A stretch of 64,000 nucleotides of DNA. Origin: Desulfobacteraceae bacterium. GTDB taxonomy: Bacteria; Desulfobacterota; Desulfobacteria; Desulfobacterales; Desulfosalsimonadaceae. Positions 2,738 to 19,830 of the stretch are shown piece by piece; the first letter of the stretch is position 1; every line of letters starts with the position of its first letter. Location of the stretch: contig QZKW01000077.1 in assembly GCA_003599885.1 (NCBI GenBank), positions 1 through 64,000 of the forward strand, read 5' to 3'. The position numbers were made by a program, and so were the translations under genes. The notes below the pieces were generated by a model that was given only the letters and a program-made list of their open reading frames with translations, had not been told where the DNA came from and made no database searches.

Positions 2738-3505
2738 ATGGTGAATCAGACGTTAGAGGACAGGGTTTCTATTCTTAGGGAAAGTTTCGGCGCAGGCCCG
2801 GCGCCGGTTCTAGAAGTTTCCGGTGCGTTTCAAGTCGATTTCGATCCAGAGCAACGCGTGTACGCTTATGTTGAAACTTATGATGGTGCCATCACTGCCC
2901 GTTATGAAACAAAAGAAGCGGATCCTGAAAAGCGTCGGCATGCGGTAGAAAAGGTTCAGAGCCGTTTGCAAAATGAAATCCGGGTGGCGCAAATCTCCGG
3001 TTTTACCCAGGTGCAATTATTGAAAGACCTGTTTGTATATACGGCCCGGATCGATATGGATCCGGCAGTTTTTTATCACCAGACAATTTTCATTGGAGAG
3101 GCAGAGATGGAGGTGCCTGTTTCTATCCCTGCTTCTGATGAAAAATTCGATGGCACGTTCGCCGCAACTCCCGATACGAAGCTTGAAAATCTAACCAATG
3201 AGTCGCCCATTGCGGAAGTGATAAAGGAGATGGAAGCCATTGATGCGAAGATATTGCGTCAGGGTCTTGATATGATGAACCTGAAACGATCTAGTACGGT
3301 CCGGATTGCATTGACCCGAATCTTTCGGAGCGTGGGAGATGCGGAGGAGGTGGCCCAGGTCATTCAGCAGGAAGCCGGGAAAATTATTTCAATGGAAGAC
3401 CGGGAAGATCTTCGTATGGTTCAGGTGATTCATGCCGACGGGTTTTTAAAACCGGTTATCAACCTGTTATATGAAGCGGTATTCGATAGAAATAAATTCA
3501 GTTGA
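2738..3505 (+). CDS. Hypothetical protein, second of two tandem paralogues
   Basis: A 255-residue protein of unknown family, paralogous to the gene 37 bases upstream. The C-terminal helical domain (about residues 155-250) carries the same IDAKILRQGLDMMNLKRSST block and ends in a similar LLYEAVF segment. The N-terminal half keeps the length and fold pattern but is more diverged and lacks the CGC pair of its neighbour. It is soluble, with no visible catalytic motif. The gene ends 9 bases before the convergent J-like gene, with no clear terminator between. A paired, possibly heteromeric, role is inferred from duplication only. Confidence 0.7.
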   Translation: MVNQTLEDRVSILRESFGAGPAPVLEVSGAFQVDFDPEQRVYAYVETYDGAITARYETKEADPEKRRHAVEKVQSRLQNEIRVAQISGFTQVQLLKDLFVYTARIDMDPAVFYHQTIFIGEAEMEVPVSIPASDEKFDGTFAATPDTKLENLTNESPIAEVIKEMEAIDAKILRQGLDMMNLKRSSTVRIALTRIFRSVGDAEEVAQVIQQEAGKIISMEDREDLRMVQVIHADGFLKPVINLLYEAVFDRNKFS

Positions 3506-16722: not shown

Positions 16723-16891
16723 TGCAGGCTCCTTTATGTGCGGCGGTTGGTGGTTCATGACGGGTGACAGGTGATAAATCGGTTTGTTATTGGCAGGTTA
16801 TATACGAAAACGGGAAGGGAATCCAGAAATAATAACGGTGAAATGTGTTACGGAAAGATTGCACGTATGTTCGGCGGGGGTTTTTGCCCAT

Positions 16892-17123
16892 CGCGATGCG
16901 GCCCTGATCCGATGGTTTTCGTGGATCACGGGGGCAAACTGTTTGAGCGGATAAATGCCAATGAACCTGCCGGTTGCGACAAGCGAAGTCGGCATAACGC
17001 TCCCTGGCAAGCCACAATTGTAGCGAGTTTTTGCCCACGCCACGGAAACCATTGGGTCAGGGAGCTTTCCGCATCGCGGGGCTGGGTTCTTTTGTTACTT
17101 TTCTTGCCCACCAAGAAAAGTAA
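16892..17123 (+). repeat. Structured repeat copy A (candidate structured RNA)
   Basis: No convincing gene lies here. The sequence folds into a long hairpin: outer arms CGCGATGCGG (from 16892) and CCGCATCGCG (to 17078), and middle arms 16902-16940 and 17026-17064 enclosing a variable loop of about 85 bases. A 12-bp hairpin TTACTTTTCTTG/CAAGAAAAGTAA (17095-17123) follows. In the middle stem, the three differences from perfect pairing over 16902-16924 are all G-U type when read as plus-strand RNA, which points to RNA transcribed in this direction. An inverted second copy lies at 19551-19784. Confidence 0.7.
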
Positions 17124-17265
17124 AAATGACAGGGGGTTGCCGGGGATATCGGTTAAAAAATCAATTTAACCACCGTTGAATCAGTCAAGAGTGTAGGTAT
17201 GACCCTGTGATTTTTCGCAACGTGCTCTTCAGCGGGCGATAGGAATGATCGTCGGATGGAAACGA

Positions 17266-18006
17266 TCAGTTCGCTTTTTTGAGTTTCTCACTGTCTTTAT
17301 CTATCCGAGCATGGAATACACAGTAGCGGGGGAATGTCCAATCCGTACCATAAAGTGATTGTATCTCTGGTTTCGGAAACGTTTCTTCAAAGTCAACAAT
17401 ATGGAAGCCGTACTTTTTGAGTACGAAAAAGTATCGAGAAAGTGGCCGGTGGCTGTATGGGACACCAGAAATTTTTGTATTCGGATCCTTTGTCACAGCA
17501 AAAGAGACGGACTTTGTAAGCTCTTTCATATAATGATACTCAGATGGAGCAAAGAATTTCTTATATTCATTGTAAAAACAAGGATGAGGGATAGCGAACA
17601 CAAAGTGAGATTGATTCCCCATAAACTGGGCCACACTTGCAATAAACAACTCTAAATTATCAACAAGCTGTAAGACCATATGGGAAATAATCAAATCAAA
17701 AGTGCGCTCACTTCGATAGTCTTCGGCTCTCAAACGAAATAATTGAACACAACTTCCTTCAATTACCTGCTCTGCTACGGAATACATGCCTTCTGAAGGC
17801 TCGATTGCGACAGATGTATTCACATGATTGCTTAGATTTGTTGAAAGATGCCCCGTCCCACATCCTACTTCTATTAATGATTCTGGGCGAAGCTCTTTAA
17901 CCAAATCCACATAATAAGGAAGGAAAACCTTGGAGAAGGTTAGGTCATTTCCTGATTCAATCTGAACCCGTCGAATGGATGCGAAGTCATCCCATCTGTT
18001 CGGCAT
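17266..18006 (-). CDS. Class I SAM-dependent methyltransferase
   Basis: About 246 residues from ATG 18006, behind AAAGGA; the frame is open further upstream but inside the preceding gene. Motif I of Rossmann-fold methyltransferases is clear (SLIEVGCGTGHLS), followed by an acidic strand end (AIEPSEGM) and a motif IV-like FDLIISHMVLQLVDN. The C-terminal half has the beta strands of a small-molecule or lipid methyltransferase (HPCFYNEYKKFF, YSHRPLSRYF). The substrate is unknown. It overlaps the stop of the membrane protein by 20 bases, so translation is probably coupled. It belongs to the cassette bounded by structured repeats A and B. Confidence 0.85.
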   Translation of the reverse strand: MPNRWDDFASIRRVQIESGNDLTFSKVFLPYYVDLVKELRPESLIEVGCGTGHLSTNLSNHVNTSVAIEPSEGMYSVAEQVIEGSCVQLFRLRAEDYRSERTFDLIISHMVLQLVDNLELFIASVAQFMGNQSHFVFAIPHPCFYNEYKKFFAPSEYHYMKELTKSVSFAVTKDPNTKISGVPYSHRPLSRYFFVLKKYGFHIVDFEETFPKPEIQSLYGTDWTFPRYCVFHARIDKDSEKLKKAN

Positions 18007-18649
18007 TAGCCTGTTCCTTTGATTTGCGAATAATGTCTTTCGCCATTCCAATAATCTGTGGGCCAGAGTGATTGTCGAATATCGTTACCTCATGTTCAGG
18101 ATGTGACCCCCGAGCTATGGCAAGGCGCTCTGCACCGCTTCGATTCCCATTAACTAATGTGAATCGAGCCTCAGGGGCAGTACCTTCATTAGTGACGAAG
18201 AAGCGAATCCCCGCCTGTTCTAAATCATTTCGAATATCATCTTCCACAGGTTTGGGAGTGATCACTTCAACAAAAGCACCTTCGCTTGCCTTTTTCTTTA
18301 CCGCATCCATAAGTTCTTGAGAGTTTCGAATCCAGGATAAGCGACTAGTGACAATCTGAACGGTACTGCCACTTGTTACGAAATCTTTCATAAACGAGAG
18401 GGTAATGGCTTCCGTTTTGTGATTTTCAACGTGGGGGAGATACCTGAATCCTTTTTTTGCCAACATAATTACCACAGTAATGACTTCAAGAATTGCAGCA
18501 GTGACAAGGCTTCCGAGATATGGCAAGTCAGAACGCGTATTCGCTTCTGGACTAAACCAAAGATATCCAAGCCCAATCAGGGCAAGTAACGTCGTTAAAA
18601 GAAAGATGACAATGAATGCGTAAAGCGCTATTTTGACAATTTTAAGCAT
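17987..18649 (-). CDS. Two-TM membrane protein with PLD-like cytoplasmic domain
   Basis: 220 residues. Two membrane helices (about 7-30 and 46-64) precede a soluble domain (about 80-215). TVQIVTSRLSWIRNSQELMDAVKKKASEGAFVEVITPKP has the strand-helix pattern of PLD-like domains, and EARFTLVNGNRSGAERLAI sits where the HKD motif would be, but no clean HxKxxxxD is present. It may therefore be a non-catalytic or diverged member. The gene is translationally coupled to the methyltransferase downstream. Membrane-anchored PLD-like proteins occur in defence contexts, but nothing here proves that role. Confidence 0.6.
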   Translation of the reverse strand: MLKIVKIALYAFIVIFLLTTLLALIGLGYLWFSPEANTRSDLPYLGSLVTAAILEVITVVIMLAKKGFRYLPHVENHKTEAITLSFMKDFVTSGSTVQIVTSRLSWIRNSQELMDAVKKKASEGAFVEVITPKPVEDDIRNDLEQAGIRFFVTNEGTAPEARFTLVNGNRSGAERLAIARGSHPEHEVTIFDNHSGPQIIGMAKDIIRKSKEQANAEQMG

Positions 18650-18756
18650 ATATATTATCCTCCAATCTTCAAATTAAGCGAATGCTAAAACGCATAGGCT
18701 CCTGCTTTTTGGTGTCCTGTGCAGTTTTCTGTTAGCTTCGGTTTTATTTATAATGC

Positions 18757-19242
18757 TTATCTTTTAACTTGACCCGCCGCCCACGACCACTCTTTAGCAA
18801 TAACAACCAAATAGTTATACGCATCGATTTTGCCCCATCTAAAATTCTGATCAAGAATATCCCGTAAAGCTTTTTCAACCGTATCTCTAAGCTTGTTCAA
18901 ATTTTTAAAATTTTCTTGACTGGCAATCGCAATATAAGTGTTCTTGGGAGTTTCTATGTGTTCATAAGAATATTCTTCGCCGCTGCCACTAATCTTTGCC
19001 TGAATATGCTTTTTAAATTTTGATTTAATTAGGTAATCATCTATTTCTTTATACACTGATGAGGCAGCATTCGATAAATCAAAAGTTAAAACAACATAGT
19101 GGTAACTTTCACCCTCACCGTATTTCGAGTTTTTGAAACTATCATGAAGGAAATCCTTTTGCATTTGTGTCCTCAATCGAAAAGCTAACAAGTTATTCAA
19201 AAGTTCCTGGATATCTCCGATAGCCGGAAAGACGCATTTCAC
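18757..19242 (-). CDS. Hypothetical protein of the repeat-flanked cassette
   Basis: 161 residues, unrecognised. It has a helical N-terminus (IGDIQELLNNLLAFRLRTQMQKDFL), a central alternating strand-helix part (YHYVVLTFDLSNAASSVYKEID) and a conserved-looking end (FRWGKIDAYNYLVVIAKEWSWAAG). It has no signal peptide, membrane segment or catalytic motif that I can name. It is first in the minus-strand order of the cassette, 107 bases upstream of the membrane protein. The region is more AT-rich than its neighbours, consistent with acquisition. Confidence 0.55.
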   Translation of the reverse strand: MKCVFPAIGDIQELLNNLLAFRLRTQMQKDFLHDSFKNSKYGEGESYHYVVLTFDLSNAASSVYKEIDDYLIKSKFKKHIQAKISGSGEEYSYEHIETPKNTYIAIASQENFKNLNKLRDTVEKALRDILDQNFRWGKIDAYNYLVVIAKEWSWAAGQVKR

Positions 19243-19490
19243 TTAAAGCGGTCGTCCGAATGCGTTACAACCAACAACAAACATTTCAAAATTTATATCC
19301 ATCTGTTTACACAATATATTTATGATTAACAAGCGTTTCATTTTACCATTCTGATTTTTATAAAAAGGGGCTTGATCATCGTTTCGACCAAAATTCCAAT
19401 CCGAGCCGTAAGCGTAAGCGACCGGAACCGCTCCCTGACAGTCGCGGCTCTGAGTGGCCGAAAGGTTCTTATTCGTCCGGCAACGATATA

Positions 19491-19517
19491 CCGGAATTCA
19501 CCTTTCTGGAATTCCGG
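19491..19517. repeat. Hairpin with 9-bp perfect stem
   Basis: CCGGAATTC (19491-19499) pairs with GAATTCCGG (19509-19517). It lies in the gene-free stretch 19243-20019, just outside structured repeat B. The preceding 19395-19490 segment also looks like dispersed repeat rather than coding sequence. Confidence 0.45.
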
Positions 19518-19550
19518 AAACACCTCACTTTATTACTCGACTTTTCCCTT

Positions 19551-19784
19551 TTACTTTTCTTGATGGGCAAGAAAAGTAACAAAAGAACCCAGCCCGGCGA
19601 TGCGGAAAACTCCCTGCCCCTTCCGGTTTCCGTGGCGTGGGCAAAAACTCGCTGGATGCAGAGGTTCGCCTGGGTGCGTTGTCCCTATATGGTTTATTCC
19701 AGCCGCTGGTGTATTGTCCAAAGGTCCGCTCAAACAGTTTGCCCCCGTGATCCACGGAAACCGGAAGGGGCAGGGCCGCATCGC
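19551..19784 (-). repeat. Structured repeat copy B (inverted relative to copy A)
   Basis: The same layout as copy A on the opposite strand. Outer arms GCGATGCGG (19597-19605) and CCGCATCGC (19776-19784) and middle arms 19612-19649 and 19736-19775 are visible, including a perfect 24-bp stem (19612-19635 with 19752-19775). The terminal 12-bp hairpin is at 19551-19579. Part of the middle stem differs in sequence from copy A but still pairs, which is covariation. Open frames across it are short, overlapping and probably spurious. Confidence 0.7.
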
Positions 19785-19830
19785 AATGGGCTCCCCAACC
19801 CCGGCCGGATGGGTTGCTTGCAGACCGGTT

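Follow-up and report, generated by a model that had tools for sequence, protein, structure and literature searches.

A dispersed bacterial repeat with a covarying, directional fold and a predicted triple-helix pseudoknot at its 3' end

H-type pseudoknots in which a U.A-U triple helix occupies the major groove are known from telomerase RNA and from the SAM-II riboswitch, and triple-helix pseudoknots and ENE elements are known to stabilise the RNAs that carry them. A repeat of ~245 nt that appears to end in such a pseudoknot is described here from a 64,000-nucleotide stretch (the window) of contig QZKW01000077.1 of a Desulfobacteraceae bacterium (assembly GCA_003599885.1; 4.51 Mb, 90 contigs, 98.8% complete), in which it is present as copies A and B (Table 1). 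Like the described triple-helix pseudoknots, the element has the strand order a, b, a', b' and a U-rich loop 1 parallel to the purine strand of stem 2, and its sequence and length covary as triples require. Unlike telomerase RNA and SAM-II, the pseudoknot here is the 3' end of a dispersed bacterial element, includes a predicted C+.G-C triple at a conserved position, and shows no link to a reverse transcriptase or a ligand. The element is probably, though far from certainly, a gene or module for a structured non-coding RNA, dispersed over the chromosome, that ends 3' in a triple-helix cap.

Other described systems share some of these features. The element resembles REP, BIME and REPIN sequences in being dispersed, intergenic and multi-copy, in occurring in some inverted pairs, and in its absence at the one orthologous locus checked, and differs from them in its length (~245 nt against 20-40), in its long, directional and covarying fold, and in having neither a tag tetranucleotide 5' of the hairpin nor a Y1 gene beside a copy. 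TwoAYGGAY RNA (RF01731; PMC2864571, PMC4333381) has paired GGA hairpins that are proposed as CsrA sites (PMC4333381). Two AYGGAY-type hairpins likewise lie upstream of the pseudoknot in some relatives of the element; unlike in RF01731, twin hairpins were not seen in the window copies, and partial sub-threshold matches to that family occur in one relative only. A text search of the main text of PMC2864571 did not find 'triple helix'. Some relatives also resemble the CsrB, RsmY and RsmZ sponges in having GGA hairpins in a presumed non-coding RNA; the differences are the tens of dispersed copies and an own genome in which no CsrA was found. Unlike intrinsic terminators, copies A and B have no U-tract after the hairpin. 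Rfam 15, at gathering and permissive thresholds, gave no match at threshold over the element in the window, in line with the proposal of an unnamed family in a first-pass annotation of this DNA, and in 18 foreign loci the motif region likewise had no match that reached threshold; in seven stretches of the own genome only sub-threshold overlaps were seen (mir-46 in L032, and L20_leader touching the copy in L038). Among the open-access literature matches listed, no paper apparently describes the element, and it is apparently undescribed so far.

Copies A and B are inverted to each other and alignable over ~240 nt with 80% identity, as the first-pass annotation had claimed. Its account of the middle stem also held on inspection: copy B forms a perfect 24-bp helix (19612-19635 with 19752-19775), copy A departs from perfect pairing at three positions, each a G-U pair in the + direction, and both sides of the stem have changed between the copies with pairing retained. 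The predicted RNA folds of A and B are more stable than those of 200 of 200 shuffles (z -6.3 and -8.4). On the sense strand the element would form one long helix with a conserved motif inside it (TGTYTGAG - variable arm - CGAGTT) and end in the H-type pseudoknot.

A genome-wide search returned at least 54 matches in the own genome (E <= 1e-3); scores were taken for 40 of 78 first-look candidates, so that this number is a minimum. On the stretches fetched around them these merge into 51 places, of which 42 are near full length, 36 having the main and 6 the variant form, and 12 of the 60 genomes searched gave matches, namely the own genome, 10 of 10 congeners and, weakly, one order-mate. In an alignment of 32 of the 36 main copies (L021, L022, L029 and L037, with altered 3' ends, were omitted), a 53-pair structure is paired in 97.8% of 1693 cells, and both sides have changed in 8 of the 53 pairs. 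The covariation score is 0.111, against 0.065 after shuffling and at most 0.037 with the partner slid, and none of 500 shuffles reached the observed value on any of five covariation measures; the shuffle control leaves the relatedness of the copies unremoved, yet the slid versions, which retain that relatedness, score no higher than stated. Compensatory change, read at first from two copies, thus extends to the further ones, and the structure is well supported by comparison. Mapped on a tree, the one-sided changes in the long helix comprise 32 inferred G-U events against 5 A-C events in the sense direction (p = 7e-6), so that the directionality noted in copy A holds across copies. This preference for G-U over A-C toward the terminal hairpin therefore means that one strand folds, and on the comparative evidence it is one strand of the long helix that is under selection. 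No reading frame is conserved: the core is stop-free in at most 10 of 32 copies in any of the six frames, and the spacing of anchors takes all three residues modulo 3. A coding element was rejected on these grounds, and the open frames over the element are probably spurious, as had been suspected.

The terminal TTACTTTTCTTG hairpin of the first-pass annotation is present, and the TGGG-TTCTTTT directly 5' of it is engaged as well; this 'terminal hairpin' is better read, from comparison of sequences, as an H-type pseudoknot with a predicted triple helix. The earlier reading lacked the pseudoknot, the third strand, the ~50 copies and the relatives in other phyla. For the foreign set, one genome per species was scanned for TTCTTTTG-N-TTACTTTTCTT-loop-AAGAAAAGTAA, which gave at least 120 stretches; matches with fewer than 14 nt upstream or with a duplicated flank and loop were dropped, which kept 80 of 88 and later 113 of 128. 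The tests on 113 matches drew on all 120 listed stretches and were repeated with one random match per assembly (87 assemblies), because a single selenomonad assembly had given 13 of the 120 loci. The strict pattern includes an N that is missing from the own genus; the stem there is therefore shorter by one pair, and the own genome gives no strict-pattern match.

In 80 of the 120 listed foreign stretches, read first, complementarity between the loop and the bases directly 5' of TTCTTTT is frequent (GTGGTC/GACCAC, GTTGCC/GGCAAC, CGACC/GGTCG, TGTCC/GGACA). A fixed-register run of at least 3 between flank and loop occurs in 36 of the 113 distinct foreign matches listed (permuted mean 11.1, maximum 23, 1000 permutations) and in 35 of 87 with one match per assembly listed (permuted maximum 23, 2000 permutations). 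Of the 32 own copies, 27 have a flank/loop run of at least 3, and the a/a' pairs in the own genome are TGGG/CCCA, CGGG/CCCG, TGGC/GCCA and ACG/CGT. Strands that pair in the order a-b-a'-b' make up an H-type pseudoknot, in which TTCTTTT is loop 1 and lies parallel to the AAGAAAA of the stem.

U.A-U and C+.G-C triples require a third strand parallel to the purine strand. The number of additional T's upstream follows that of additional T-A pairs at the tip of the stem (rho 0.74 for the 113 matches listed), and third-strand length tracks stem length with one match per assembly listed (rho 0.77, 87 matches), neither value being reached in any of 10,000 permutations. Where the G of the purine strand has another position, as in CTTTCTTTn/nAAAGAAAG hairpins, the C of the third strand has shifted with it, the upstream tract being nTTTCTTTG, in 14 of the 15 loci fetched out of 35 sites in 5 genomes; in one genome with TTTTTT/AAAAAA hairpins that tract is TTTTT. 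The stem-foot pair is kept in 109 of the 113 matches listed and in 86 of 87 assemblies. The third-strand tests rest on variable letters and on hairpins of other order. Comparison shows both the pseudoknot pairing and the co-variation of the third strand in sequence and length, and the U-rich first loop would then occupy the major groove of the terminal stem as a third strand.

The body of the element is also found in relatives. Counts of the core, of GGA hairpins and of foreign neighbour genes were made on 80 of the 120 listed stretches, and the moved-C and core-stem tests on those 80 and four loci of genome G130, with the window added for the core-stem test. Upstream of the motif, 13 of 83 foreign regions carry TGTYTGAG - variable arm - CGAGTT; on the other strand 2 of 83 do, and 100 rounds of shuffling produced no region with it. 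Bases outside this core pair over a mean of 6.8 bp in 17 loci (16 foreign and the window, several of them from one genus or genome; permuted maximum 5.5), and in the window the stem enclosing the shared core is GGGCAAA/TTTGCCC. The distance from the end of the core to the third strand is 57 nt in the window and 29-74 nt elsewhere. The TGAG/CGAG internal loop of the core presumably resembles tandem G.A motifs such as kink-turns. Since their body is shared with foreign loci, the window copies belong to a wider class rather than to a local repeat. Foreign matches listed come from Xanthomonadaceae, Burkholderiales, Gallionellales, Pasteurellaceae, Psychromonas, Desulfobacterota, Lentisphaerae, Selenomonadales, Oscillospiraceae, Nitrospirae and others; the motif thus occurs in several bacterial phyla, with ten to dozens of copies in some genomes and, in the loci searched, no Rfam family at threshold.

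Several observations weigh against a structured RNA with a triple-helix cap. In the own genome the asymmetry is reversed at the terminal hairpin (1 G-U against 5 A-C, small numbers), 3 of 32 copies have loops too short for the pseudoknot, 5 of 32 reach no flank/loop run longer than 2, and the third strand of copy L024 carries a T-to-A change. In the foreign set no register run of at least 3 is present in 77 of the 113 matches listed or in 52 of 87 assemblies, locus L207 departs from the moved-C rule, TTCTTTTG is not independent evidence as part of the third strand because the search pattern fixes it, and 12 of 88 motif places lie inside a mechanical open reading frame (ORF) of at least 150 codons. 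The distribution is patchy, with the strict motif in 1 of 98 genomes of the phylum (ten copies there) and the alternative hairpins CTTTCTTTn/nAAAGAAAG and TTTTTT/AAAAAA in 5 of 395 and 1 of 297 genomes, respectively. No promoter-like or terminator-like site is seen at copy A or B, and CsrA (PF02599) gives no match in the own genome, with matches in 3 of 14 control genomes.

The main rival holds the repeat to be non-autonomous mobile DNA: a trans-acting enzyme would recognise its folded single strand, as Y1 transposases do with REP/REPIN sequences, and the pseudoknot and triple helix would be shapes of single-stranded DNA for recognition by a protein. We regard this reading as unlikely, though a serious contender. 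It would suit the ~50 dispersed copies, the three Y1 transposase genes of the own genome and a BIME-like arrangement in which 6 of 6 full-length variants and 2 partial ones are paired divergently with a main copy, hairpins outward and 106-212 nt apart. It would also suit the L010 copy after mutL, which is absent directly 3' of mutL in 7 of 7 relatives read (two readable for ~90-180 nt), where a clean boundary or target duplication is not readable because the downstream genes differ among the relatives. A folded single DNA strand is expected to give most of the same signs, and tolerance of G-U is also expected in single-stranded DNA. The first-pass annotation's claim of selection on a fold with a defined direction is supported; most signs do not separate RNA from a folded DNA strand. 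Nor do the triples discriminate between the two, since C+.G triples are harder at neutral pH in DNA and RNA alike. At the boundaries of the element flank conservation fades and two distinct types of 3' flank occur, and no target-site duplication was seen at the copies by eye.

Against a mobile DNA element, 0 of the 3 Y1 loci has a copy within ~1.5 kb. In none of the 32 main copies does one of the REP tags GTAG, CGTC and GGAG lie in the 15 nt that precede the third strand on its 5' side. One 54-base query matched 0 of 50,697 phage records and 23 of 72,556 plasmid records, 22 of these >200 kb, and the sense-strand GGA hairpins of the relatives point to an RNA-binding protein. The 54-base query also matched 0 of 20,395 E. 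coli records, the strict motif was found in 1 stretch of viral contigs, and a direct search of plasmids gave no match for copy A and one 45-base match for a Xanthomonas copy; the plasmid gene tables omit RNA genes, and no weight attaches to the absence of an annotated feature in them. An RNA is favoured over single-stranded DNA on the relatives' strand-specific GGA hairpins, the direction of the fold and the rarity in phages and plasmids. Two candidate carriers were rejected: Y1/RAYT, as none of the three Y1 genes lies beside a copy, and reverse transcriptase loci, none of which holds a copy, although intron-like ends interrupt two copies.

GGA-loop hairpins in the 83 foreign regions number 78 sense against 25 antisense (shuffled 23.7 +/- 4.7 in 30 shuffles; related regions unthinned). 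Frequently two of them are of the AYGGAY type, ~28-32 nt apart; gammaproteobacteria have such pairs around -110 and -80, selenomonads around -55 and -23, and because of these pairs CsrA/RsmA is the probable protein partner in those relatives. A multi-copy family of small RNAs that sequester CsrA/RsmA, like CsrB and RsmZ, with the window copies degenerate or repurposed, would draw on these pairs, on sub-threshold matches of RF01731 to the body of L094 (29.6 bits, cut-off 43) and of RsmW to the body of L120 (33.4 bits, cut-off 52), and on the 31 sense against 6 antisense GGA hairpins of the own main copies (7-19 in ten shuffles; copies not independent). In L094 a further RF01731 match, of 32 bits, lies outside the element on the other strand. 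We consider such a family improbable as an account of the element: with no detectable CsrA in the own genome, CsrA binding does not explain the window copies, which moreover show no twin AYGGAY hairpins.

Under the reading as a structured RNA, the element would be transcribed toward the terminal hairpin, the triple helix would cap and stabilise the RNA 3' end, and the body would present hairpins to a protein; the 3'-end cap and the protein platform are proposed with moderate to low confidence. The copies would have spread by some process to mostly intergenic places, often with the capped end toward the 3' end of the neighbouring gene. Judged by mechanical ORFs, of the 36 own copies with an ORF called on each side 14 have convergent and 4 divergent neighbours (pair members counted singly), and in 25 of the 38 own copies with an ORF on the capped side that gene is antisense, its 3' end facing the cap. 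This orientation would fit a 3'-end signal of neighbouring mRNAs, a terminator or 3' stabiliser without an independent RNA, as would the foreign copies that abut a convergent stop codon (capped end 1-2 bases from it at L081, L085, L086, L125 and L144) or a tRNA 3' end (hairpin beginning two bases past the tRNA gene at L204 and L210, genome G376), an adjacency hinting at a placement rule. Such a signal is nonetheless highly improbable, given the lack of a U-tract and of a terminator-like site at A and B, a 5' gene that is co-oriented in just 23 of the 40 own copies with an ORF there, and the absence of any preference in neighbour orientation at foreign loci (15, 12, 12 and 11 of 50).

A broader and decidedly speculative proposal, to which we give little credence, is that these are multi-phylum self-propagating chromosomal RNA elements, a bacterial counterpart of SINEs, in which the 3' pseudoknot would serve as an exonuclease shield and as the recognition site of a copying enzyme acting in trans, with a swappable body that consists, depending on the lineage, of CsrA-binding hairpins or of the TGTYTGAG/CGAGTT module. 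Should the triple helix prove real, bacteria would have a natural RNA triple helix that is frequent and offers biophysics many natural variants. Dispersed bacterial repeats would then be connected with RNA stability and, in certain lineages, with the Csr system.

Table 1. Parts of copies A and B in the window (positions from its first letter; triples are predictions)
Feature	Position	Strand	Basis
Copy A, element core	16886..17125	+	sequence comparison
Copy A outer arm, 5' side (GCCCATCGCGATGCGG), partner ~17069-17082	16886..16901	+	fold, covariation
Copy A middle arm, 5' side; 3 imperfect pairs, each G-U in + direction	16902..16924	+	fold
Copy A inner stem, 5' side GGGCAAA; partner TTTGCCC 17030-17036	16932..16938	+	covariation, core comparison
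Copy A conserved TGTTTGAG, part of shared core	16940..16947	+	core comparison
Copy A variable arm, little conserved among copies	16948..17023	+	alignment
Copy A conserved CGAGTT, part of shared core	17024..17029	+	core comparison
Copy A middle arm, 3' side	17040..17062	+	fold
Copy A pseudoknot strand a (TGGG), partner a' in loop	17083..17086	+	flank/loop pairing
Copy A third strand TTCTTTT; U.A-U and C+.G-C triples predicted with AAGAAAA, to which it runs parallel	17087..17093	+	
Copy A hairpin 5' arm TTACTTTTCTT	17095..17105	+	covariation
Copy A loop strand a' (CCCA)	17107..17110	+	flank/loop pairing
Copy A hairpin 3' arm AAGAAAAGTAA, purine strand of predicted triple helix	17113..17123	+	
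Copy B, element core	19549..19791	-	sequence comparison
Copy B hairpin 3' arm AAGAAAAGTAA	19551..19561	-	
Copy B loop strand a' (CCCA)	19564..19567	-	
Copy B hairpin 5' arm TTACTTTTCTT	19569..19579	-	
Copy B third strand TTCTTTT	19581..19587	-	
Copy B pseudoknot strand a (TGGG)	19588..19591	-	

Between the convergent copies A and B, positions 17150-19540 have a GC content of 0.41-0.45, against 0.52-0.55 in the neighbouring sequence except at 15-16 kb (0.44), and contain a gene with a class I methyltransferase fold (17266-18051) and two genes without a clear family. Short cargo also lies between the copies of two further convergent pairs: at L016 it is 0.9 kb long and has no large ORF, and at L028 it is 1.3 kb long and includes an HNH / type IV restriction-like gene.

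The terminal hairpin seems to be a repeated insertion target. At L021:1-76 and L029:1-76 the same sequence, at contig ends, breaks two copies inside the hairpin, and on the opposite strand it resembles the 3' end of a group II intron; at L022:2945-2978 and L025 near 3700 the hairpins of one main and one variant copy are broken by near-identical sequence, adjoined at L022 by a DDE transposase gene. Some tens of nucleotides 5' of some copies, as at L017 and L039, lies a REP-like palindrome (GTAGGTCGGGTTTCTTACCCGAC or similar). At L042 the 5' and 3' ends of the element (1542-1614 and 3131-3182) stand in the wrong order on one strand, 1.5 kb apart, as a rearranged pair. In another genome of the phylum (G280:C7; L215-L222), TTTTTT-hairpin relatives form tandem arrays with a period of ~505 bp. 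The divergent main/variant pairs of the own genome are at L012, L019, L023, L025, L027, L032, L038 and L040, a set found with copy A as query, which may have missed solo distant variants, and similar divergent pairs are present in congeners (L058, L060, L068 and L069).

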